A stretch of 64,000 bases of DNA from Gammaproteobacteria bacterium (GTDB lineage Bacteria; Pseudomonadota; Gammaproteobacteria; Ga0077536). The first letter of the stretch is position 1. Each line of letters opens with the position of its first letter. Shown one piece after another: positions 5,995 to 38,143 of this stretch. Under the pieces are notes generated by a model, which was not told the DNA's origin, made no database searches, and was given only the letters and a program-made list of their open reading frames with translations. The stretch covers positions 62,001-126,000 of the forward strand of contig JADLGE010000009.1 in assembly GCA_020849475.1 (NCBI GenBank), in the 5' to 3' direction. Made by a program: the position numbers and the translations under genes.

Positions 5995-8347
5995 CCTGCG
6001 GCAACGTCTCATCGTGCTGCTGGTGGCGGCCTTGGGCGCCGTGCAGATCCTGACGCTCAGCGCGGTGCTGCTCGCCACCCATCGCAATGTCCGATTCGAA
6101 CTGCACAACCGTCTGGGCGTGGCCGAGGACGTATTTGAGCGCCTCTACGAATCACGCTTCCGACAGTTGCTGGCATCGGTCGAAGTGCTGTCGTCCGATT
6201 TCGGCTTCAAACAGGCGGCCGCCAGCGCCGACCGTGCAACGATTGCGTCGGCGCTGGAAAATCATGGCGCGCGCGCCGGTGCCGATGTCGCGCTGCTGGT
6301 GGCGCTGGATGGGCAGATGGTCGCCAGCAACGACGCGCAGGCATCCCTGGCGGACAACCCGACCTGGCAGGCGCTGCTCGGGCAGCTGCGCCGCGATGAC
6401 ACGCTGCTCGCGACGGTGACGCTGGACCGCGCGGCCTACCAGCTGGTGGCCACGCCGGTGCGGGCGCCCGAGAAGATAGGCTGGTTACTGCTGGGTTTCG
6501 CCGTCAACGACACGCTGGCGGCCGAGTTGCGCCACCTGACCGGCCTCGAGGTGTCGTTCGTGACACGTTCGCCCAGGCCTCATCTGCTCGCATCGACCTT
6601 GAGCGATGTCGCGCGCGGCGCGCTGTTGGCGGCGTCGCCGGTCAGCACCGTCGCCGGAAAGTCACCGGTCGGCGAACTCAGCCTCAATGGCGAGCGATAC
6701 ATCGGTCGCACCCTGGCCCTGGCTTCCGCCGATCCGCATGTCGACGTGTTGTTGCAGCAATCACTGAGCGCGGCGCTGTTGCCCTATCACCGCCTGGCCT
6801 GGCGACTCGCGGCATTTTTCACCTTGGTGCTGGCGCTCGCGATTGCGGCGGGTGTCAGTGTCGCGCGCAGCGTGACCGCGCCGCTGCAACAACTGGCGGG
6901 GGCCGCCGCGCGCATCGGCGAGGGCCAATACGGCAGCGAAGTCGAAGTACAGTCCGATGACGAGATTGGCCAGCTCGCCGCCACCATCAACGGCATGCAG
7001 TTCGAGATCGCGGAGCGCGAGCATCGCATCGTGCACCAGGCCCATCACGATGACTTGACCGGCTTGCCCAACCGTTGGCTGGCCAATGATCGTTTGAACG
7101 GCGCCATCCACCGCGCGCAGCGCAGCGCGCGGCCTTTCAGCGTGGCGCTGCTGGACCTCTCGCGTTTCAAGCAGATCAACGACAGTCTCGGTCATCACGT
7201 TGGCGATGTGGTGCTGAAGGAAACCGCGCGGCGCATCGTTGCCCGTGCGCGCCGCGCCGATACTGTCGCGCGCCTTGGCGGCGATGATTTCCTGCTGGTG
7301 CTGGAGGGCGCCGACATCCAGCAGGCGCGCGCCATCCTGAGTGTCCTGCGCAGCAGCCTGACGCAGCCGATAGAGCTCGAAGGCATGAGTGTGTCGCTGG
7401 ATTTCCGCGCCGGCGTGGCCAGCTATCCCGAACACGGCGAAGACCCGTCGTCGCTCATGCGCCGCGCCGAGATTGCGATGTACGACGCCAAGGACTCGCA
7501 GGAGTGGCTGGTGCCCTATCGCGCCGGGCGTGATGAAGGTCATCTGCGTCAGCTCGCCATCGTCGCGACCTTGCCGGCGGCGCTGGCGCGCGATGAACTG
7601 ACCTTGCACTACCAGGCCAAGGCCGACATGGGCAGCGGCCTCATCGCGCAGGCCGAGGCGCTGGTGCGCTGGGTGCACCCACAGTTCGGCTTTCTACCGC
7701 CCGATGAATTCATCACTGTCATCGAGCAGTCCGGCAATATCGCGATGCTCACCGCGTGGATAATCGATCGCGCCGCGCGCCAGTGTCGCGAGTGGCTGTC
7801 GCAGGGCCTGGATATCAAAGTCAGCGTCAACCTGTCGGCGCTCGATCTCCTGAACGATGAACTGCCGGCGCTGCTCGAGCGCTGCCTGCACCAATACCAG
7901 TTGTCGCCACGCCAGCTGGGTCTCGAAGTGACCGAGTCGGCAGTGATGCGCGACCCTGCCAGTGCGCTGGCGGTGCTGGCGCGTCTGCGCGAGACGGGCT
8001 TTGGTCTGTCCATCGATGACTTCGGCACCGGCTATTCGTCGCTGGCGCAGTTGAAGCGCATGCCGGTAGATGAACTCAAGATAGACAAGTCCTTCGTGCT
8101 GCATCTGAACGAGTCGTCGGACGATCGCGTAATCGTCAAATCCACCATCGACCTTGCCCACACCCTCGGCCTCAAAGTGGTGGCGGAGGGCGTCGAGACG
8201 GTCGATGCCTGGCATTGTCTGCGTCAGCTCGGCTGCGACGTGGCCCAGGGCTATCTGATTGCAAAGCCACTGGCGCCGGCGGAATTCGAACGCTTTCTGC
8301 GCGCCAACGGCCAGTCCTGTGTGACTCTGACCGAGGCTGCGGCATGA
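5981..8347 (+). CDS. Membrane GGDEF-EAL c-di-GMP protein with extracytoplasmic sensor and HAMP
   Basis: The product is 788 aa from a GTG at 5981, chosen because it puts a basic start (ARRSLRQR) just before the first membrane helix; the open frame begins inside the upstream gene. Order: TM1 (residues about 9-31), a periplasmic sensing region of about 220 residues, TM2 (LAAFFTLVLALAIAAGVSVA), HAMP, GGDEF, EAL. The GGDEF motif is altered to GGDDF, but the RxxD inhibitory site (RRAD) is kept five residues upstream. The EAL domain keeps EALVRW, NLSAL, EVTESAV, DDFGTGYSSL, KIDKSFV and AEGVET. The sequence therefore predicts a c-di-GMP phosphodiesterase; cyclase activity is uncertain. It overlaps both neighbours, which points to one operon. 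Confidence 0.9.
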   Translation: MARRSLRQRLIVLLVAALGAVQILTLSAVLLATHRNVRFELHNRLGVAEDVFERLYESRFRQLLASVEVLSSDFGFKQAAASADRATIASALENHGARAGADVALLVALDGQMVASNDAQASLADNPTWQALLGQLRRDDTLLATVTLDRAAYQLVATPVRAPEKIGWLLLGFAVNDTLAAELRHLTGLEVSFVTRSPRPHLLASTLSDVARGALLAASPVSTVAGKSPVGELSLNGERYIGRTLALASADPHVDVLLQQSLSAALLPYHRLAWRLAAFFTLVLALAIAAGVSVARSVTAPLQQLAGAAARIGEGQYGSEVEVQSDDEIGQLAATINGMQFEIAEREHRIVHQAHHDDLTGLPNRWLANDRLNGAIHRAQRSARPFSVALLDLSRFKQINDSLGHHVGDVVLKETARRIVARARRADTVARLGGDDFLLVLEGADIQQARAILSVLRSSLTQPIELEGMSVSLDFRAGVASYPEHGEDPSSLMRRAEIAMYDAKDSQEWLVPYRAGRDEGHLRQLAIVATLPAALARDELTLHYQAKADMGSGLIAQAEALVRWVHPQFGFLPPDEFITVIEQSGNIAMLTAWIIDRAARQCREWLSQGLDIKVSVNLSALDLLNDELPALLERCLHQYQLSPRQLGLEVTESAVMRDPASALAVLARLRETGFGLSIDDFGTGYSSLAQLKRMPVDELKIDKSFVLHLNESSDDRVIVKSTIDLAHTLGLKVVAEGVETVDAWHCLRQLGCDVAQGYLIAKPLAPAEFERFLRANGQSCVTLTEAAA

Positions 8348-28032: not shown

Positions 28033-28174
28033 ATTAGGCGACGCTGGCAGCGGCGATCGAAAACGCACGGCATGGCGGCCATGAGCGCGCGTTTCGAGCG
28101 CGCGGTGCTGGCCAACATGCTGGCGTCGCGGTTGGCGGGCGTCATCACGCACAGCGCGCACGGGATGGCGTGAC

Positions 28175-29233
28175 ATGAACATGAAAATTGGCCTCGGCCT
28201 GACCTGGCATATTGAACTCCACGGCCAGCGCTATGCCATCGAAGCTTTGCTGTTCGATTTGCTCGAGGCGGTGGAGCGGGGTGGCCATCTCAACTTTGCG
28301 GCCAGCGCCACCGGCGTGTCCTATCGTCACGCCTGGGGCCTCATGCGCACCTGGGAAGAGCGCCTCAAACTGCCCTTGCTCGACCTGCAACGCGGCCGCG
28401 GCGCGACCTTGACCGCCAGCGGTCGGGCCCTGTTGCTGGCCCTTTCGCAGGCCGCCGCCCAGACCCAGGGCGCCTTGAGCCAGGCCGCGGCGCAGGCCAC
28501 CGCCCTGTTGGCCCCGACCCTCGAGAGCAATCGCGCGCTGGTGCGCATCGCGTCCAGCAACAGCGAGTTGATCAACGGCCTGGTCGATGCCCTGTACGGC
28601 GCGCAATGGCAGGTGGTGCTGGACGTGCTGGGCAGCGAGGCGGCTCTGCATCGTTACCAGCGGGGTGACGTCGACGTGGTGGGCTTTCATCTGCCGCTGG
28701 GGGAACTCGGCCGCACCGTTGGCATGGCCTTGACCGCGCTGCTCGACGACGCGCGTGATCAAGTCTTTCTGCTTGAACTGCGCGCGCTCGGCTTGATGTC
28801 ACGACCTGAACGACCACTCAGCGAACTGGACGAACTCATCGGCGACGATGTGCGCTTCATCAACCGTCAGCCCGGTTCGGGCACGCGCCTGGTGTTCGAT
28901 GGCCTGCTCGGCACGCGCGGCATTGCGCCGGGCACGATTGCCGGTTATCGCAACGAGGAATACACCCACTCGGCGGTGGCGGCGATGGTCGCCAGTGGCA
29001 GCGCCGATGCTGGCTTTGGCACGGCCACCGCCGCGGCGCGCTTCAGGCTCGCGTTCAAGCCCTTCGTGCAGGAGCGGTTCTATCTATGCGTGCGGCGCAG
29101 CGCCGCGCGTGAACTGAGTGAGGCGGTCGCAGCCTATGTGCAGGCGACCCTGGCGAGCGGTGAACGCGCGCCAGCGGCGAGTGAGATTCAACCGAGCGTC
29201 GGTTTGTTGAGGCGCCTGCACAATCCCATGTAG
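28175..29233 (+). CDS. ModE-like HTH regulator fused to a periplasmic-binding-protein-like domain
   Basis: The product is 352 aa. Residues ~1-100 form a LysR/ModE-type winged helix (EALLFDLLEAVERGGHLNFAASATGVSYRHAWGLMRTWEE, then GRGATLTASGRALL). Residues ~120-320 are a PBP-like ligand domain with RYQRGDVDVVGFHLP, RFINRQPGSGTRLVFD and YTHSAVAAMVASGSADAGFG. This architecture occurs in proteobacterial molybdate/tungstate-responsive regulators, where the PBP part senses the anion directly. It is transcribed away from the TonB/TupA operon across a 241-bp region holding two candidate operators. I infer that it controls this operon. Confidence 0.85.
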   Translation: MNMKIGLGLTWHIELHGQRYAIEALLFDLLEAVERGGHLNFAASATGVSYRHAWGLMRTWEERLKLPLLDLQRGRGATLTASGRALLLALSQAAAQTQGALSQAAAQATALLAPTLESNRALVRIASSNSELINGLVDALYGAQWQVVLDVLGSEAALHRYQRGDVDVVGFHLPLGELGRTVGMALTALLDDARDQVFLLELRALGLMSRPERPLSELDELIGDDVRFINRQPGSGTRLVFDGLLGTRGIAPGTIAGYRNEEYTHSAVAAMVASGSADAGFGTATAAARFRLAFKPFVQERFYLCVRRSAARELSEAVAAYVQATLASGERAPAASEIQPSVGLLRRLHNPM

Positions 29234-29252
29234 GCGCCGCAACTTGCGCGGA

Positions 29253-30443
29253 TTACTTCAAGACTCTGGCGCAGGACTCGAGGAAGTATTCGAGGTTGGC
29301 ATTGTTGATGCCGGCCACATTGATGCGGCTCGAACCCACCATGTAGATGCCGCATTCCTTCTGCAGGCGCGTGACCTGCTCGGGCGAGATGCCCAAGAAC
29401 GAGAACATGCCACGCTGCTTCTGGATGAAGCTGAAGTCCTGACCAGTGGCGGCGGCGAGGCGCTCGGCCAGCACATCGCGCAGACCGTTGATGCGCTCGC
29501 GCATCTCGTCCAGCTCCTTGACCCACGCCACGTTCAAGGCTTCGTCGCCGAGAATAATCTCGACCAGCGCCGCGCCGTGCGCCGGCGGCATCGAGTAGCT
29601 GGTGCGCACCACCGAGTCTATCTGGCTCTGCACCTTGCTGACTTCAGCGCTAGTCTTGGTGACTATCTGCAGCGCGCCGACGCGTTCGCGATAGAGGCCG
29701 AAATTCTTCGAATAGGAACTCGCGACCAGCAGTTCCGGGCAGGCATCGGCCATGATGCGCAGGCCCATGGCGTCGTCGTCGAGACTGTCACCCAGGCCCT
29801 GGTAGGCAAGATCGATGTAGGGCGTCAAGCCACGCTCGCTGCAGATCTTCGCAATCTCCTGCCAGTCGGCCCGTTGCGGATCGACGCCCGACGGGTTGTG
29901 GCAGCAGCCGTGGAACAGCACCAGGTCGCCCGACGGCACCTTGGCCAGCGCCGCCAGCATGGCCTCGGTGTTGAGACCGCGGGTCTGCTTGTCGTAGTAG
30001 GGATAGGTTTCAATCTTGATGCCGGCGCTGCCGAGCAGCGGCACATGGTTGGCCCAGGTCGGGTCGCTGACCCAGATGGTGGCATCGGGGCGCGCGCGCT
30101 TGATGAGTTCGGCGCCCATGCGCAGCGCGCCGCAACCGCCGGGCGTCTGCACGCCGGCCACGCGCTTGTCTTTCAGCACCGCATGATTGCCGCCGAACAT
30201 GAGCTTGCGCACCAGCGCGTTGAAGCCGGGGGTGCCGGGCGGGCCGATGTAGGTCTTGGTGGTCTCCGTGGCGAAGCGGCGTTTCTCGGCCTCGGTCACG
30301 GTTTTCAGAATCGGGGTGTTGCCTTGCTCGTCGCGGTACACACCGACGCCCAGGTCGATCTTCTGCGCGCGCGGATCGTCGCGGAATGCGGCCGTCAGGC
30401 CGAGGATGGCGTCGGGGCTCAAGGCTTCCAGGGTTTCGAACAT
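29253..30443 (-). CDS. Class I aminotransferase (aspartate/aromatic amino-acid type)
   Basis: The product is 396 aa and a full fold-type I aminotransferase of the AspC/TyrB subgroup. It opens LEALSPDAILGLTAAFRDDPR, with KIDLGVGVYRDEQGNTPIL next. The PLP lysine is in VASSYSKNFGLYRERVGAL, the pyridine-nitrogen aspartate in YIDLAYQGLGD, the substrate-binding HNPSG in GCCHNPSGVDP, and the carboxylate-binding arginine in SSRINVAGIN. The enzyme exchanges amino groups between aspartate or aromatic amino acids and 2-oxoglutarate. Its start is 98 bp from the next gene end upstream and it appears monocistronic. Confidence 0.92.
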   Translation of the reverse strand: MFETLEALSPDAILGLTAAFRDDPRAQKIDLGVGVYRDEQGNTPILKTVTEAEKRRFATETTKTYIGPPGTPGFNALVRKLMFGGNHAVLKDKRVAGVQTPGGCGALRMGAELIKRARPDATIWVSDPTWANHVPLLGSAGIKIETYPYYDKQTRGLNTEAMLAALAKVPSGDLVLFHGCCHNPSGVDPQRADWQEIAKICSERGLTPYIDLAYQGLGDSLDDDAMGLRIMADACPELLVASSYSKNFGLYRERVGALQIVTKTSAEVSKVQSQIDSVVRTSYSMPPAHGAALVEIILGDEALNVAWVKELDEMRERINGLRDVLAERLAAATGQDFSFIQKQRGMFSFLGISPEQVTRLQKECGIYMVGSSRINVAGINNANLEYFLESCARVLK

Positions 30444-30541
30444 GGCTTTACTGAGACTCCAGGGTCATGGCTCAAGGGGGGATGAGGCGCGCGAATATAC
30501 CACGGCGTATTGCAGCCGGCGCAGGGCGGGAAGCGGGTGGA

Positions 30542-30997
30542 TCAGTGTTCGAAGCAGCGCAGCGCGGCCGACGCGGCGCGCAACGCGTCGATGTCGGCCT
30601 GCACTTGCGGACGCTTCTGCTGAGCGCGGAATTGCTGCACGGTGCGGAACGGCAGATAGGCGAACGCCGGCATCCATACCGTGCCCAACAGGGCGCTGGT
30701 ACGCACGCGCGGATCGCCCATGAAGTCGGTTGGATTCTGATCGACCTGGCCGCGCATCAAGGCCACGCGGCGGTTGTAGAGCGTGGCGCAATCGAGATTG
30801 GTCGGCATCACCACCTGCGGCGCGGGGTTGCCGAGGGCGAGATCGTGGGCGTCTTGCGCGCGTTCCTTGACGAACTGTTTGACCTGCACCGGCTCGATGG
30901 CGTCGAGCGTCGATACCGGCGGCTCAGCGTCGAGCGCATGGGCGACGGGCATGATGAGACTCATGCCGATGATGATGGACAACACGCGTAAGCACAT
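30542..30997 (-). CDS. Exported protein of unknown function (151 aa)
   Basis: A signal peptide (LSIIIGMSLIMPVAHALDA) ends near residue 22. The mature part is mostly helical, with two cysteines: NLDCATLYNRRVALMRGQVD and ALRCFEH at the very C-terminus, which could form a disulfide. The segment GDPRVRTSALLGTVWMPAFAYLPFRTV may be a membrane-associated hairpin. I do not recognise a family. It ends within 100 bp of the aminotransferase and lies in the same direction as the DUF992 gene. Confidence 0.65.
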   Translation of the reverse strand: MCLRVLSIIIGMSLIMPVAHALDAEPPVSTLDAIEPVQVKQFVKERAQDAHDLALGNPAPQVVMPTNLDCATLYNRRVALMRGQVDQNPTDFMGDPRVRTSALLGTVWMPAFAYLPFRTVQQFRAQQKRPQVQADIDALRAASAALRCFEH

Positions 30998-31057
30998 GGC
31001 TGGACCCCTCCACTGATCAGGAGGTGGCGGCCGCCAGCCGCGAATCTTGAGGGTGCG

Positions 31058-31561
31058 TTACGGGCGCGGGGCGGGTGCGGGTTCGATGTAGAGAAATGAC
31101 AGGCCGCCCGAGGCGCCGAGGCCGCGGCTCGACTCGAGCGCCACCGGCTGCAGGCCGACATTCTTCGCGCCACCGCCGAACAGCGCCTTGGCGCCGAGGC
31201 CGAGACCGGCGACCGCCGATACTTCGCCGCCCACATACTTGCCGGCCAGTGCGTTGGAACCGGGCGCGATGTCCTGCGAAGCCGACAGCACCGTGAAGGC
31301 CATGCGCTCGTTGCGGCGAAAACTCAAATCGACACCGAGAGCGATGCCGGTCTCGCCGACATAGTGCTCGGCCGCGCCGCCCTTGGTGTAGTCGCAGGTG
31401 ACATCGGCGGTTGAACGCACCACCAGGTTGACGCGGCTGCCGGGCACCACGGTGCAGGTCAAAAGGCCCACCTCGAGGCCGGGCGCCTGGGCCCGCGAGG
31501 TCGGACACATCAACAGGCCGCCGAGCAGCACGGGCAGGGCGAGGAACGGCGCTCGATTCAT
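31058..31561 (-). CDS. DUF992 family exported protein
   Basis: The product is 167 aa from the ATG at 31561, which gives a clean signal peptide (FLALPVLLGGLLMCPTSRAQA). The family pattern is clear: GLLTCTVVPGSRVNLVVRS, VTCDYTKGGAAEHYVGETG and IALGVDLSF. The rest is glycine-rich beta sequence (GEVSAVAGLGLGAKALFGGG). DUF992 proteins are exported and of unknown role. Its upstream region is where the transposable element begins; the LexA half-site lies 106 bp before its start codon. Confidence 0.8.
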   Translation of the reverse strand: MNRAPFLALPVLLGGLLMCPTSRAQAPGLEVGLLTCTVVPGSRVNLVVRSTADVTCDYTKGGAAEHYVGETGIALGVDLSFRRNERMAFTVLSASQDIAPGSNALAGKYVGGEVSAVAGLGLGAKALFGGGAKNVGLQPVALESSRGLGASGGLSFLYIEPAPAPRP

Positions 31562-31666: not shown

Positions 31667-31678
31667 CTGTTTTTATAT
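31667..31678. promoter_or_regulatory. Left half of a LexA (SOS) box split by the transposon, including the left target duplication
   Basis: CTGT (31667-31670) is followed by the target duplication TTTTATAT (31671-31678), after which the transposon begins. The matching right half is at 35003-35014. Joined across one duplication copy they read CTGTTTTTATATACAG, which fits the CTGT-N8-ACAG LexA box of gammaproteobacteria. Confidence 0.8.
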
Positions 31679-31701
31679 GGTGCTGTCTCAGTTTGAAATC
31701 C
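31679..31701 (+). repeat. Left terminal inverted repeat of the element
   Basis: This 23-bp end is identical, in inverted orientation, to 34980-35002. It starts GGTGCTGTCTCAG and ends GAAATCC. Confidence 0.95.
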
Positions 31702-31793
31702 CGATCGCCACAGCCCTTTTCGCAAATACTACTGTATGAACGTCCAGTAGTAAAATGCTTGACCGGATAAGAATCCCTGCCCATCCTTAGGGG

Positions 31794-32060
31794 ATGAAAA
31801 AAGCCAAACCGAAACGAGACCTAAACCAGCTCGCCAAGCTCATCGTTGATATAGCTACGGGCGAAGAAGACGCCGAAAAAGAGAAAGCCGAGAAAAAGAA
31901 AGGGGCGGAGGAAGAGGATGGCAAGAACCCTGCCGCCGTCGCCCTGGGCCGCTTGGGCGGCCTGAAGGGCGGGAAGGCTAGAGCCGCAGCCTTATCGCCG
32001 AAGAAAAGATCGGCGATAGCGAAGAAAGCGGCTGCGGCTAGGTGGAAGAAGGATCATTAA
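31794..32060 (+). CDS. Small basic KGG-motif protein (passenger gene)
   Basis: The product is 88 aa. The N-terminal half is a highly charged Lys/Glu helix (EEDAEKEKAEKKKGAEEED). The C-terminal half carries GRLGGLKGGKARAAALSP followed by KKRSAIAKKAAAARWKK. A closely matching motif is found at the N-terminus of the neighbouring P63C protein. The highly basic tail suggests nucleic-acid binding, similar to small accessory proteins of plasmids and phages; this is inference. An AGGGG run directly abuts the ATG. Its 3' end overlaps the converging P63C gene by 23 bases. Confidence 0.75.
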   Translation: MKKAKPKRDLNQLAKLIVDIATGEEDAEKEKAEKKKGAEEEDGKNPAAVALGRLGGLKGGKARAAALSPKKRSAIAKKAAAARWKKDH

Positions 32061-33105
32061 GCGGCAATTCAAGCGTTGCGCCTTTTTTCGGCAGCACTTG
32101 ATCCACCATCTGCACAAACCGGGCCCACCCATATCCGTTCTTTATGGCTAGGCGCTGAAACATCACCAGAGTATATAAGTGCTGCGCAAGCATTGGATCG
32201 CCTATGTCCTCAGTTAGCCACTGATGCAGTTTGTTTTGACGCTGGCCCCGTCCATCTTTCGGGCTTTTTTTCTCCAGCTCTTCTAAAACTCCAGGGGCGA
32301 GACGCTCATAAACAAGGTCGCGGATGTATTTCCCGACAATAGAGTACCTATTGGTTTTCATCCCTGGCCACGCCCACCCACGCAGCTTGTAGATGTTCTC
32401 AAAAAATTCGTCAGGGAATTTTTTCACCCATGCCGCCAACTGCTCACGAATAACGTGCCTTAAGTATTCCTGAAGCGCGTTTTGTGGCCGGACTTTCTCA
32501 TAGCCGGTCGTTTCATCGACCAAGGCGACGATGCCCGTCTCGGCGAGCGCCCGCGCCAACAGTTCGGCGTTTTGTGCCTTTGGCAACTGCTGGATCTGAA
32601 GCGCCCCGGCTGCTCGCGCCTCAAGCCACAGATTGCATGCAGCGGGAAGGATCGCGGCGTCATACCCGCGAATTACCTTATCCCCATCCAAGTAATCGAC
32701 TGGCTTTAAGGGCCCATCCTCTAAGTCTTTGGTTATAAAAGGGTGAAGCTGTCTAGGGGCTAGAAAAAGAGGCAAAGGGGCCCCTTGTTCTTCAAGTGAC
32801 TTTTTAAGCCTTTTGGATGCTCCACTACGAGAGCCAAGCAACGCGAGTGTTATTCCGTTTTCGGTCAAGACGCGCTGAACGCCATTGGGGCCCTCGATTA
32901 CCGCGCATGGGATCTTCGCTCCAGCCAAATCAAGAGTCCCGCTAAAACCTTCCAGAACCCTCGGCAATCCCTCAACATCGCGACCACGCTTGGCAGCCCA
33001 TCGCGCCTTCGCTGCATTCGATGCGATTTCCGATTTTTTCTCAGACGAGAGACTTTCGGCGCGCGCATGTCCGCCCTTCGCCTTGTTCGATTCGTTATCC
33101 TTCAT
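32038..33105 (-). CDS. P63C-domain protein with N-terminal KGG-type motif (passenger gene)
   Basis: The product is 355 aa from the ATG at 33105, which has ACAGGA at good spacing; an ATG nine bases earlier lacks room for a ribosome site. Residues ~9-38 (KGGHARAESLSSEKKSEIAS then NAAKARW) repeat the motif of the convergent small protein. Residues ~215-285 match the P63C domain: LAAWVKKFPDEFFENIYKLRGWAW, IVGKYIRDLVYERLAPGVLEEL. P63C domains occur in phage, plasmid and transposon proteins and have no established biochemistry. The promoter region holds a cluster of ATGCTTGC repeats, one of which covers the start. The A+T-rich codon use differs from the host genes. Confidence 0.85.
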   Translation of the reverse strand: MKDNESNKAKGGHARAESLSSEKKSEIASNAAKARWAAKRGRDVEGLPRVLEGFSGTLDLAGAKIPCAVIEGPNGVQRVLTENGITLALLGSRSGASKRLKKSLEEQGAPLPLFLAPRQLHPFITKDLEDGPLKPVDYLDGDKVIRGYDAAILPAACNLWLEARAAGALQIQQLPKAQNAELLARALAETGIVALVDETTGYEKVRPQNALQEYLRHVIREQLAAWVKKFPDEFFENIYKLRGWAWPGMKTNRYSIVGKYIRDLVYERLAPGVLEELEKKSPKDGRGQRQNKLHQWLTEDIGDPMLAQHLYTLVMFQRLAIKNGYGWARFVQMVDQVLPKKGATLELPLNDPSST

Positions 33106-33106
33106 G

Positions 33107-33205
33107 GCAAGCATCCTGTGTCTGATGCTTGCATCATCGCCCCATGACAAACAGAATGCAAGCATTAGTAAATTTATGCTTGCGATTAATTAAGCGCTCA
33201 AGCAT
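33107..33205. repeat. Iteron-like cluster of ATGCTTGC / GCAAGCAT repeats
   Basis: Core copies are at 33107-33114, 33125-33132, 33158-33165, 33176-33183 and, with one change (TCAAGCAT), 33198-33205. Several form palindromes, for example GATGCTTGCATC (33124-33135) and AATGCAAGCATT (33155-33166). Related cores occur before the KGG gene (31755-31762) and in the start of the transposase gene (33293, 33326). The cluster fills the gap between the divergent P63C and transposase genes. It looks like a binding array for a regulator or a transposition accessory protein. Confidence 0.7.
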
Positions 33206-33235
33206 AATTGATCACACTGAAATTGAGGCCGCATC

Positions 33236-34078
33236 ATGAACCGCCTGAGCATCGAAGAGCGAGCAAAGATCCTTAACCTCCTTGTCGAAGGCTCAAGCAT
33301 GCGAGCGGTATCCCGTATCACCGGCGCAAGCATCAACACCGTCACCAAGTTGCTTGTTGATACTGGCCGCGCGTGTGCTGAATTTCAGGATGGCGCATTG
33401 CGCAATCTTCCCTGCAAGCGCGTGCAGGCCGACGAAATCCACTCGTTTGTGTTTGCGAAATCAAAAAATGCAGATCAGGACATGAAGGCAGCCGGGACGG
33501 CTGGCGACGTATGGACCTGGACCGCTATTTGCGCAGATACCAAGCTCGCGGTGTCGTGGATGGTAGGTCGCCGCGACATTGCCGCCGCCACGGTCTTTAT
33601 CGATGATGTGGCATCTCGGCTGGCTGGGCGCATCCAGCTTTCCACAGATGGCCACAAACCCTATCTGAACGCGATTGCCGGGGCTTTTGGCCGTGACATC
33701 GACTACGGCCGCCTGATCAAGTACTACAAGCCCAACGGCGATTTCATGAAGTCAGAGCGCATGCCTACGGTGGGCTGCCCGGACTATGACCACATCTCCA
33801 CCAGCTTCGTCGAGCGCCAGAATTTGACCATGCGCATGAGCATCAAGCGCTTTGCTCGTGCTACCAACGCCCACAGCAAGAAAGTCGAGAACCACGCCCA
33901 CGCCATTGCGCTGCACTTCATGTTCTACAACTTCGGGCGCGTCCATAAGACGCTCAAGATGACTCCGGCCATGGCGGCGGGCATCGCAAGTCACGTCTGG
34001 AGCTTGGAAGAGATTGCGGGGCTAGTTAAGGATGAGGCCCCGAAGGTTCGCGGACCTTATAGGAAGCGGGCCGCGTAA
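33236..34078 (+). CDS. DDE transposase of the element (IS1-family-like, single ORF)
   Basis: The product is 280 aa. An N-terminal helix-turn-helix (ERAKILNLLVEGSSMRAVSRITGASINTVTKLL) is followed by an RNase H-like DDE core. The catalytic residues are in VQADEIHSFVF (Asp), LSTDGHKPY (Asp) and SFVERQNLTMRM (Glu), in the usual order and spacing. It is commonly annotated as IS1 family, but unlike classical IS1 there is no frameshift. The tail is basic (RGPYRKRAA). The gene is intact. It is transcribed divergently from the P63C gene. Confidence 0.88.
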   Translation: MNRLSIEERAKILNLLVEGSSMRAVSRITGASINTVTKLLVDTGRACAEFQDGALRNLPCKRVQADEIHSFVFAKSKNADQDMKAAGTAGDVWTWTAICADTKLAVSWMVGRRDIAAATVFIDDVASRLAGRIQLSTDGHKPYLNAIAGAFGRDIDYGRLIKYYKPNGDFMKSERMPTVGCPDYDHISTSFVERQNLTMRMSIKRFARATNAHSKKVENHAHAIALHFMFYNFGRVHKTLKMTPAMAAGIASHVWSLEEIAGLVKDEAPKVRGPYRKRAA

Positions 34079-34090
34079 TTTATTTATTGA

Positions 34091-34513
34091 TTACTTTCTA
34101 CGCTTCCGCTTGGCGGCGGGAGTAGGCGGCTTATCTGGCGACTGCCGCTTGACTAGCACGGCAACGATTGTGGCTAAAGTTGCGCCTCCTATAGTCATCG
34201 CAGCGTAATCATGGCCTCGAATCGCAACATACGCGGCGATTCCCAAGCCGAAAAGAGCGATGATCGCGCCGGCAAAAATTCCAGCCAATCTCTCCGAGAA
34301 TATGAACGTATTAGTGCGCCGAACTTCGGCCCGCCGAAAATCCGCTTCGATCTGCGTCTGCTCAACAACCCAATTAACAAGCTTAGGGTCTAACTCTGCG
34401 AGTCGGTGTAACGCCTCGACGGGTAAAATCGGGCTATCAGTCGTCGTTGACGTGAACTGAAGCTGTCGCCCGTCTTGATCCCTTGCTTGCAGGTTTGTGT
34501 GTTGGTTCGACAC
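34091..34513 (-). CDS. DUF2335-like membrane protein (passenger gene)
   Basis: The product is 140 aa from a GTG at 34513 (purine-rich GCGGAAG upstream). The soluble N-terminal part includes LAELDPKLVNWVVEQTQIEADFRRAEVRR. Two transmembrane helices follow (LAGIFAGAIIALFGLGIAAYVAI and MTIGGATLATIVAVLV), and the chain ends with a basic tail. This resembles DUF2335, a family of predicted membrane proteins found in accessory DNA. The function is unknown. Its first 77 bases overlap the preceding small gene in another frame. Confidence 0.7.
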   Translation of the reverse strand: MSNQHTNLQARDQDGRQLQFTSTTTDSPILPVEALHRLAELDPKLVNWVVEQTQIEADFRRAEVRRTNTFIFSERLAGIFAGAIIALFGLGIAAYVAIRGHDYAAMTIGGATLATIVAVLVKRQSPDKPPTPAAKRKRRK

Positions 34514-34688
34514 GCTTCCGCTCTATAACTTTCCGCATATCCGAACCGACTTTGCGCAGATCACCGGCTAAACGCTCCTGATCAGAGGCAAAGCCGCCCT
34601 TGGTCGGCACCACGTAATCGCGAGGCTTAATATATGATTCCGCGATCCAAAATAGACCATCGGAAATAATTTTAATTGCTTTCCCCAT
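34437..34688 (-). CDS. Small unknown protein of the element (83 aa)
   Basis: GCAGGAG seven bases before the ATG at 34688 decides the start. The sequence is amphipathic at the N-terminus (IKIISDGLFWIAESYI) and then charged (ERLAGDLRKVGSDMRKVIERKR). It has no recognised domain. It overlaps the DUF2335-like gene by 77 bases, so the two are probably translated together. Confidence 0.6.
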   Translation of the reverse strand: MGKAIKIISDGLFWIAESYIKPRDYVVPTKGGFASDQERLAGDLRKVGSDMRKVIERKRVEPTHKPASKGSRRATASVHVNDD

Positions 34689-34979
34689 GGTTAAACTCCT
34701 GCCCGATTTACTGCGCATCTCTGCGGATTTAGCGGGATATGCGCCCCATCCTTGAGACTCCGCCTTTCGATATTTCATGGGTAGTGGACAGAGTATAGGC
34801 CTGAGAGTTTAGCGATTGCTATCAGTGACGCTGTTACAGGATGTGCCGCCATCTCTCAATTTTGCTACAGAGCGACCCTTGCGGCAGTTGGCAAACCCAC
34901 CTCGTCATACAGCCTGGACGTTTATCCAGTAGTCCGCCTAGAATTCTCTGTATAGACCGTAATTGGTGGCGAAGTTCTC
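34689..34979. other. Right arm of the transposable element without a gene
   Basis: This stretch of 291 bases lies between the last passenger gene and the right inverted repeat. I see no coding frame with a ribosome site in it. It is A+T-rich compared with the host. Confidence 0.6.
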
Positions 34980-35002
34980 GGATTTCAAACTGAGACAGCA
35001 CC
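34980..35002 (-). repeat. Right terminal inverted repeat of the element
   Basis: This is the exact inverse of 31679-31701. It is followed directly by the second TTTTATAT target copy (35003-35010). Confidence 0.95.
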
Positions 35003-35014
35003 TTTTATATACAG
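35003..35014. promoter_or_regulatory. Right half of the split LexA box, including the right target duplication
   Basis: TTTTATAT (35003-35010) is followed by ACAG (35011-35014). In the occupied state the position of CTGT is taken by CACC from the transposon end, so the SOS box beside dnaE2 is no longer intact. The half-site ends 33 bases before the dnaE2 ATG. Confidence 0.8.
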
Positions 35015-35047: not shown

Positions 35048-38000
35048 ATGTCCAGCGCGTCCCTGCCTGCCTATGCCGAGTTGCATGCCGTCAGCAATTT
35101 CACTTTCCTGCGCGGCGCTTCCCATCCCGAGGAACTGGTGCGCGAAGCCCATCGACTCGGCTATTGCGCGCTGGCCCTGACCGACGAATGTTCGCTGGCG
35201 GGCGTGGTGCGCGCCCATGTGGTGGCGCGTGAGCTCGACTTCAAACTGCTGGTCGGCACCGAGGTGTTTTTGAGCGATGGCCTGCATCTGTTATTGCTGG
35301 CCGACAGCCTGCGCGCCTACCAGCGCATCGCAACCCTCGTCACGCGCGGCCGGCGTCGCCAACGCAAGGGCGCCTACGAGCTCCATCGCGATGATCTGGG
35401 CTTATTGAACGACGCCGGCCTGGTGGTGTTCCTGCCGCGCCTCGGCGACGACGATGAAGCTGCGCTGGCGTGGCTGGCGCAGCGCTTCGATGGACGACTG
35501 TGGGTGGGCGTGGGCCTGTTTTACAGCGGCTACGATCATGTGCTGCTGGCCCACGCCGAGACTCTGGCGGCGCGCCATGGCCTGGCGGTGGTGGCGACCG
35601 GCAACGTGCACATGCATGTGCATGCACGCAAACCCCTGCAGGACACCCTGACCGCCATTCGCCATGGCACCACCGTCATGAGCGCCGGCCATCTGCTGTT
35701 TCCCAATGGTGAACGCTATCTCAGGCCGCGCGAGCGCCTGGCGCGCATCTATCCGCCGGCGCTGCTGGCGGCCACGGTGGCACTCGCCGCGCGCTGTGAC
35801 TTCACGCTGGCCGAATTGCGTTATCGCTACCCGGCCGAACTGGTGCCGGCGGGCATGACGGCGAGCGCCCATCTGCGCGCCCTGACCGAGGCCGGCATGC
35901 GCCGACGCTGGCCGCAGGGCGTGGCGGCCAAGGTGCGCAGCCAGGTTGAACATGAACTCACCCTCATCGCCGAACTCGGCTACGAGGCATTTTTTCTGAC
36001 CGTGCACGACATCGTGATGTTCGCGCGCAGTCGCCACATCCTGTGCCAGGGCCGCGGCTCGGCGGCCAATTCGGCGGTGTGTTTCTGTCTCGGCATCACC
36101 GAGGTCGATCCGGCGCGCATGGAAATGCTGTTCGAGCGGTTCATTTCCAAGGAGCGCAATGAGCCGCCGGACATCGACGTCGATTTCGAACACGAGCGGC
36201 GCGAGGAAGTGCTGCAATACATCTACGCCAAGTACGGCCGCGAGCGCGCGGCGCTGGCCGCGACCGTCATCACCTATCGCCTGCGCAGCGCGGTGCGCGA
36301 TGTCGGCAAGGCGCTCGGCATGAGCGTCGAACAGGTCGAACGCCTGTCGGGCAATCTCTATTGGTGGGACCGCGGCAACGACATGTCGGCGCGCCTGCGT
36401 GAAGTGGGTTTCGATCCCGACAACCCGATCATCCGTCGCGTGGTGATGCTGGTCGGAGAGATTCTGGGATTTCCCCGGCACCTGTCCCAGCATGTCGGCG
36501 GCTTCGTGATCTCGGACCAGCCGCTGTCGGAACTGGTGCCGATAGAAAACGCGGCGATGGCCGAGCGCACCGTCATCCAATGGGACAAGGACGACCTGGA
36601 CGCCTTGGGTCTTCTGAAAGTCGACTGCCTGTGTCTCGGCATGCTGAGCGCGATTCGGCGCAGCTTCGATCTCATCCAGGACTTCGATGGTCGACGCCTG
36701 ACCATGGCGGGCATTCCCGCCGAGGATCCGAAGACCTATGAAATGATCCAGCACGCCGACACCGTCGGCGTGTTCCAGATTGAATCGCGCGCGCAGATGG
36801 CGATGCTGCCGCGTTTGAAGCCCAGGTGTTACTACGACCTCGTGATCGAAATCGCCATCATCCGCCCGGGCCCGATACAGGGCGAGATGGTGCATCCCTA
36901 CCTGCGTCGGCGTAATGGCGAAGAAGCGGTCGAGTATCCGAGCGAGGAGGTGCGCGGCGTGCTGGAACGCACGCTCGGCGTGCCCTTGTTCCAGGAGCAG
37001 GTCATCAAGCTCGCGATGGTGGCGGCCGGCTTCACGCCCGGTGAAGCCGATCATCTGCGTCGTTCGATGGCGGCCTGGAAGCGCAGCGGCGGGCTCGAGC
37101 ATTTCCGTCAGCGCCTGTTGGACGGCATGCGCGCGCGCGGCTACCAGGAAGCGTTTGCCGAGCGCATCTTTCACCAGATTGAAGGCTTTGGTGAATACGG
37201 CTTTCCAGAATCCCATTCGGCGAGCTTCGCCCTCCTGGCCTATGTCTCGGCGTGGCTGAAACGCCACGAGCCGGCGGCCTTCGTGTGCGCGCTGTTGAAC
37301 AGCCAGCCGATGGGTTTCTATGCGCCCGCGCAGTTGATCCAGGACGCCGTGCGCCATGGTGTCGAGGTGCGCGCCGTCGATGTGCTGGTGAGCGAGTGGG
37401 AGTCGACGCTGGAAGACCGCGCACCCGGCGCGCGCCAGGCAGTGGTGCGCTTGGGTCTCGGGCGCATCAAGGGGCTGAAACAAGAGGCGGCGGCGCGCAT
37501 CGTCGCCGCACGCGGACAGGGGGCCTTCACCGATGTCACCGACCTCGCGCGCCGCGCCGGCCTCGACCGCGGCACTGTGCGGGTGCTGTCCCAGGGGGGC
37601 GCGCTCGCGACCCTGGTCGGCAATCGCCACCATGCATCGTGGGCGGCGCTCGGCATCGAGACGCCGCTCGAGGTATTGCCCGAAGCGCGCATCCGCGAGG
37701 CAGCGCCCTTGCTGCGCACCCCCGGCGAAGGCGAGGACATCGTCGCAGACTACGCCAAGCTCGGCTTCACCCTGGGCCGTCACCCGCTGGCCTTGCTGCG
37801 CGAGCACTTGCACCGTCGCCGCTGCCTCACCGCGGCCGACATCGCCAGCGCGGAACCCGGTCAGCGCATCCGCACCGCCGGCCTCGTCATCAGCCGTCAA
37901 CGGCCGGGCACCGCCACCGGCGTGGTGTTCGTGACCCTCGAGGACGAGACCGGCATCATCAATCTCATCGTGTGGGCCAATCTCGTCGAAGCCCAGCGCC

Positions 38001-38143
38001 GCGAGCTGCTGCATGCGCAACTGCTGGGCGTGGTGGGTGAAGTCCAAAGGGATGGCGAGGTCGTACATGTCATCGCGCAACGCCTGTCGGACCATTCACC
38101 CCTGCTCGGGCGGCTCAAGGCCGCCTCGCGGGATTTCCACTGA
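35048..38143 (+). CDS. dnaE2: Error-prone DNA polymerase DnaE2 (ImuC)
   Basis: The product is 1031 aa, the usual DnaE2 length. It begins with the PHP domain ([23 protein letters not shown]), then the polymerase core with [24 protein letters not shown], the catalytic [16 protein letters not shown] and SQHVGGFVI. After the fingers ([20 protein letters not shown]) come a helix-hairpin-helix and a C-terminal OB domain ([18 protein letters not shown] then [11 protein letters not shown]). DnaE2 performs SOS-induced translesion synthesis with ImuA and ImuB, but neither gene is adjacent. Its LexA box has been split by the transposon, so its SOS control is probably altered. It is complete with no frameshift. 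Confidence 0.95.

Follow-up and report, generated by a model that had tools for sequence, protein, structure and literature searches.

The dnaE2 locus described here lies in a stretch of 64,000 nucleotides (the window) from a gammaproteobacterium of the GTDB lineage Ga0077536 (assembly GCA_020849475.1, contig JADLGE010000009.1, positions 62,001 to 126,000 of the forward strand). The gene encodes a full-length error-prone DNA polymerase of 1031 amino acids (35048-38143, forward strand) that scores 1483 bits against the curated error-prone polymerase model NF004225 (PRK05672; cut-off 939). Upstream of dnaE2, a terminal-repeat/duplication search located an IS1-related transposon of 3324 bp (31679-35002), which is bounded by terminal inverted repeats of 23 bp (GGTGCTGTCTCAGTTTGAAATCC; left repeat 31679-31701, forward strand; right repeat 34980-35002, reverse strand) that are identical at 23 of 23 bases. 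The element is flanked by two copies of an 8-bp target duplication, TTTTATAT (31671-31678 and 35003-35010), and these are flanked in turn by CTGT on the left (31667-31670) and ACAG on the right (35011-35014), all read directly from the forward strand. Between the end of ACAG and the ATG of dnaE2 at 35048 lie 33 bases.

When one copy of TTTTATAT is deleted, the rebuilt 16-mer CTGTTTTTATATACAG has the form CTGT-N8-ACAG and stands 33 bp before dnaE2, and the duplication corresponds precisely to N8. From the flanks and the rebuilt site, the initial annotation had placed the element inside the LexA box of dnaE2 and had equated the 8-bp duplication with the spacer between the two half-sites. Its coordinates are right to the base, the match of duplication and spacer is exact on direct reading, and the terminal-repeat/duplication search, which was run independently, placed this pair of ends first. 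The LexA operator of dnaE2 is split by the insertion, and only half-sites are left.

The assignment of the empty site as a predicted LexA (SOS) box of the beta/gammaproteobacterial type is well supported. The lexA gene of this genome (C69) is preceded by two tandem boxes, and the gene-proximal box is CTGTTTTTATATACAG on the other strand, identical to the rebuilt dnaE2 site at 16 of 16 positions. CTGT followed by eight A/T bases and ACAG is found at a single place in the genome, namely as CTGTTTTTATATACAG directly before lexA. G001 and G002, the two congeners, also have this sequence before lexA, so that three congeners possess an identical 16-mer. The bare CTGT-N8-ACAG pattern shows no enrichment in the genome (21 places versus 40 for a reversed-pattern control), and thus the A+T spacer and the position carry the weight. 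The LexA protein scores 246 bits against the curated LexA model, above the cut-off of 110.95, and alignment of its DNA-binding domain to a solved LexA shows near-identical residues in the recognition helix (GFRSANAAEEHLRALARKG versus GFKSPNAAEEHLKALARKG). Because the 16-mer also forms the operator of lexA itself and the DNA-binding domain of the protein resembles that of the solved LexA, the predicted recognition of CTGT-N8-ACAG by this LexA is supported. No box with up to one mismatch was found in the 400 bp that precede the domain start of recA (L175, G000:C55), where the nearest box-like match is CTGTGCAATAATCCGG with two mismatches, nor in the 300 bp upstream of the gene for a second LexA-like protein (C21). 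The LexA regulon of the genus may be nearly confined to mutasome genes.

In both congeners, dnaE2 is preceded by a LexA-like box at the corresponding position. The alignment of G001 covers positions 28088-31551 of the window and resumes from 35003 onward, and both flanks of the element adjoin there. The empty site before dnaE2 reads CTGATTTTATATACAG in G001 and CTGTTGTTATATACAG in G002. A transposase match is absent from both genomes (completeness 92% and 99%), and a search of 36 genomes of the bacterial family for the transposase found, apart from the copy in the window, one fragment of 31 residues. In the wider survey, 55 of 58 genomes gave a DNA polymerase match of some kind, and 30 dnaE2 loci were fetched, which leaves 29 when the window's own is subtracted. 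Within 300 bp upstream, 19 of these 29 loci have an exact CTGT-N8-ACAG, and three further loci (G001, G009, and G033) have an A+T-rich box with one mismatch. The initial annotation had read the empty site as an SOS box and had considered that LexA might recognize another motif in this genome; the lexA operator, the congeners, the wider set of relatives, and the LexA domain all support the former, and the identical 16-mer in the lexA operator together with the DNA-binding domain argues against the latter.

A LexA profile was derived from 23 boxes, which themselves score 18.4-30.5 bits. The rebuilt box reaches 29.2 bits, a value that is partly circular because one of the profile sequences equals it, versus 9.15 bits at each junction, where no such circularity applies. 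In the portion of PMC13393415 that deals with ISCR promoters, a change in one terminal triplet of CTGT-N8-ACAG abolished the binding of Escherichia coli LexA in vitro. We propose that dnaE2 had a working LexA operator, into which the transposon jumped, duplicating the 8-bp A+T spacer and leaving the two LexA half-sites separated by 3.3 kb of foreign DNA. Repression of dnaE2 through this site by LexA, which binds the pair of half-sites as a dimer, would have ceased. The gene would thereby have left the SOS regulon; the split itself is present in the DNA, and the loss of binding and of control would follow from it. Loss of LexA control over dnaE2 is likely on these grounds, in line with the earlier view that normal LexA binding is lost here. 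Taken as a whole, the explanation that the operator was split, that dnaE2 was uncoupled from the SOS response, and that the element landed there by chance appears to us quite probable. Comparison of dnaE2 with its counterpart in G001 (pS 0.47, pN 0.056, dN/dS 0.079) indicates a maintained gene, a ratio that mostly reflects the time before the insertion and is silent on the period afterwards.

Several observations weigh against this explanation. LexA may retain weak binding to a half-site, and two LexA-like palindromes within the element outscore the junction halves in the LexA profile and could restore some LexA control. The second LexA-like protein (L007) matches the DNA-binding domain as well, albeit more weakly. 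The empty-site comparison comes from congeners, none of which belongs to the same species. In G001, the nearest relative, the dnaE2 box (L040, reverse strand near 7726) has CTGA for CTGT in its left half-site, with the lexA operator intact, and given this mismatch the hold of LexA on dnaE2 may have begun to weaken before the insertion. Finally, 7 of the 29 related dnaE2 loci have no convincing box (five without a box at up to one mismatch, and two with G+C-rich one-mismatch matches that were not counted), and LexA control of dnaE2 is therefore not universal in the group.

For transcription of dnaE2 after the insertion, the alternative that survives best is that the promoter was taken along with the operator and that the gene is now silent. 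All sequence upstream of the spacer has been displaced by 3.3 kb, and both right-hand cargo genes of the element point away from dnaE2. The best-scoring hybrid promoter across the junction is not significant, 11% of shuffles being as good or better (scored by hexamer frequencies), and a consensus promoter scan of the region gave three promoter-like matches versus 2.2 expected. The initial annotation had allowed for constitutive expression, silence, or expression driven from the element, and no promoter prediction exceeded chance. However, the -10-like TATATACAG remains beside dnaE2 in the second copy of the duplication and may allow weak LexA-independent transcription, and TATATA is preceded at a distance of 16 bases by the TTCAAA in the terminal repeat. 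The native site likewise has no clear -35, so that the loss was perhaps small. Silence through loss of the promoter is thus a substantial possibility that we rate below an even chance, and we consider weak LexA-independent transcription somewhat more likely than a silent gene.

The other components of the mutasome are retained under apparent LexA control. The genome contains dnaE2, imuA, imuB, and lexA, with dnaE2 apart from lexA-imuA-imuB, and the latter retains two LexA boxes. ImuA exceeds the cut-off of NF033429 (197.8 bits; cut-off 150). ImuB was called from a match to Pfam IMS (32 bits; cut-off 23.2) and from its position after imuA; neither an ImuB-specific model nor a solved relative matched. 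For the mycobacterial mutasome, the relevant text of PMC10421592 describes ImuA′, ImuB, and DnaE2 as each individually required. Because lexA-imuA-imuB keeps its two boxes and because ImuA and ImuB are needed for DnaE2-dependent mutagenesis in mycobacteria, mutagenesis should remain gated by the SOS response through ImuA/ImuB in this bacterium. According to a statement in PMC3323433, the imuA-imuB-dnaE2 cassette is persistently LexA-regulated whenever it is present. The genome studied here resembles this arrangement in that it has all of the parts, with two boxes before lexA-imuA-imuB and formerly one before dnaE2, whereas it differs in the location of dnaE2 apart from lexA-imuA-imuB and in the split of the dnaE2 operator. 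It is conceivable, but we think improbable, that the lineage keeps a mutagenic polymerase cut out of the SOS regulon, an unregulated DnaE2 being useful or harmless as long as LexA governs ImuA/ImuB. If true, the locus would test in nature which subunit of the mutasome needs control. As a bolder extension, the LexA-like palindromes of the element would re-impose partial control.

The transposon carries cargo on both sides of its transposase. From left to right, it comprises an 88-amino acid open reading frame (31794-32060, forward strand) that is partly similar to the family of the P63C protein; the P63C-domain protein itself (32038-33165, reverse strand; 375 amino acids; PF10546, 106 bits), a cargo protein whose reading frame as listed may start upstream of the true start; an IS1-related DDE transposase of 280 amino acids (33236-34078, forward strand), present as a single copy in the genome; a 140-amino acid reading frame of the PHROG membrane-protein family phrog_3996 (34091-34513, reverse strand); and a 113-amino acid reading frame that gave no match in family searches (34437-34778, reverse strand). 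Transposons of the IS1 family generate target duplications of 8-9 bp, and canonical IS1 encodes its transposase in two overlapping frames, InsA and InsB′, that are joined by frameshifting. The element shares with this family plasmid relatives annotated as "IS1 family transposase," ends that begin with GGT, and 8-bp duplications. Its transposase match to Pfam DDE_Tnp_IS1 is a narrow pass (24.8 bits; cut-off 24.1), and the score against the NCBIfam IS1 equivalog model falls below its cut-off (56.2 bits; cut-off 100). The element also differs in its length of 3.3 kb and its cargo, and since it has a single 280-amino acid reading frame instead of two frames, we describe it as IS1-related and not as IS1. 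Residues Asp-66, Asp-138, and Glu-193 are conserved in four transposase sequences and are presumably catalytic.

The two LexA-like palindromes are located near the ends of the element, the first, CTGTATGAACGTCCAG, at 31732-31747 (forward strand) and the second, CTGGATAAACGTCCAG, at 34914-34929 (reverse strand), where it overlaps an outward promoter-like match (34915-34944) in the first hexamer. They open the possibility that the element supplies its own control, with the outward promoter driving dnaE2 and LexA still acting through the palindrome. Both palindromes are the top matches to the LexA profile in the window (10.6 and 9.6 bits) and have the 9-mer AACGTCCAG in common in mirrored places, and the right one overlaps the sole outward promoter-like match near that end. 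However, these scores lie far under that of the weakest profile box (18.4 bits), the best internal LexA score over the elements of the family equals that of shuffles (5.30 versus 5.24), and the palindrome was not found at the ends of the other elements. We regard such renewed control as very unlikely.

The element belongs to a widespread family. At least 80 transposase relatives were collected from genome contigs, 56 with a terminal-repeat/duplication pair and 24 with none. Two of the pairs (L082 and L086) were dropped as spurious, and the addition of L070, L071, L072, and the window's own copy gave 58 elements (including L073-L151 and window 31679-35002) of about 2 to 4.3 kb that carry cargo. 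Their ends have the form GGTRSTGNNTCAGTTTGA, and the 8-bp duplication occurs in the window and in the 57 other elements, three of these with one mismatch. The nearest copies examined have transposases that are only about 63% identical to the one in the window; near-identical copies (transposase over 90%) were not found. Two candidate family features were rejected, namely transposase sites in the form of subterminal repeats (shared length 7.07 on average versus 6.80 in shuffles) and LexA boxes inside the elements (no excess over shuffles in the 58 elements).

Judged from domain matches, the cargo of the family appears rich in toxin-antitoxin or defense-like proteins. Among the 111 cargo reading frames scanned of 149 listed, we found 14 matches to P63C, 12 to the IrrE-like peptidase M78, and 14 to HTH domains, along with single or few matches to NYN, Panacea, HicB, Fic, GmrSD, and AbiEii-type domains; the PADLOC models gave up to 10 matches for RmrA, up to 9 for PD-Lambda-2_B, and up to 7 for capP. 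In the window's element, the P63C and transposase genes diverge, and five copies of CAAGCAT/ATGCTTG lie between them (33108-33205). Comparable TGCTTG/CAAGCA repeats, often ATGCTTGCAT-like, are found upstream of the transposase in L073, L075, L078, L081, L089, L090, and L122. Of the 15 elements with a P63C relative, 8 have at least three copies within 150 bp before the transposase, versus 2 of the 43 without (Fisher p = 1.2e-4), which suggests that the repeats are an operator for a cargo-encoded regulator, possibly one of the transposase.

The coincidence of duplication and box spacer raises the question of whether the element or its family seeks LexA boxes or LexA-bound DNA on transposition. 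The targets of the family are weakly symmetric, and the LexA box is symmetric too. Around the 8-bp duplication, the 58 sites favor C at -10 (50%) and G at +17 (53%), with A at -9/-8 and T at +15/+16. The site in the window satisfies this symmetric bias on the right side only, and perfect dyads as targets were rejected, the bias at the 58 sites being merely weak. None of the other 57 elements lies in CTGT-N8-ACAG; their best site has five of the eight defined bases, and the window alone has all eight. The count is also zero among the 21 elements in clearly beta/gammaproteobacterial or same-class hosts, a sample that gives the comparison modest power, and some of these hosts may use other LexA motifs. 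Other bacterial groups are known to use GTTC-N7-GTTC, GAAC-N4-GTTC, or TTAG-N6-TACTA as LexA motifs, and these occur in 0 of the 58 rebuilt sites. Ends were recovered for 44 of 80 relatives on viral contigs (42 distinct sites), and none lies in a box, the best matching at six of eight bases. A pattern search for element ends in 369 and 398 genomes gave 72 (26 and 46; three shared) with a pattern that misses G at -12; CTGT at -12 was seen in 2 of the 67 other ends, neither with a second end found. The duplications are not significantly richer in A+T than their flanks (G+C 0.517 versus 0.555, p = 0.34). The initial annotation had raised a preference for SOS boxes or for their A+T spacer; the other copies bear out neither. 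We consider targeting of LexA boxes highly improbable. Because none of the other elements examined lies in a LexA box, we take the landing in the box as best explained by a chance event, unselected or weakly selected, that was noticed because it is striking. An assembly error or a minority variant of a mixed population is less probable still, as the genome is in 137 contigs but the duplication and repeats are perfect, the element is intact, and synteny with G001 is unbroken on both sides within a 234-kb contig.

When an IS-type element inserts into a regulatory site, the downstream gene can be released or silenced. The present case resembles such disruptions of operators and promoters, since here too a regulatory site is interrupted by an IS-type element, and differs in that the duplication matches the spacer between the two LexA half-sites exactly. 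The SOS-regulated ISCR elements, as treated in part of PMC13393415, likewise combine a mobile element with a CTGT-N8-ACAG box, but their LexA box is their own and controls the transposase, whereas here a box of the host was the target. Full-text literature searches, which covered few subscription papers, returned no report of a transposon in the LexA box of dnaE2 or of this family of elements.

As far as can be judged from the DNA, the bacterium has probably lost damage control of its error-prone polymerase DnaE2. The locus would thus represent a natural break of a reportedly persistent LexA link, brought about by an ordinary mechanism, the insertion of a transposon into an operator. The polymerase gene alone loses its operator, against a LexA link that the cited statement in PMC3323433 describes as persistent. 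Should the loss hold in the living cell, the control of DnaE2 would be separated from that of ImuA/ImuB, which would make it testable which of the two sets the mutation rate.

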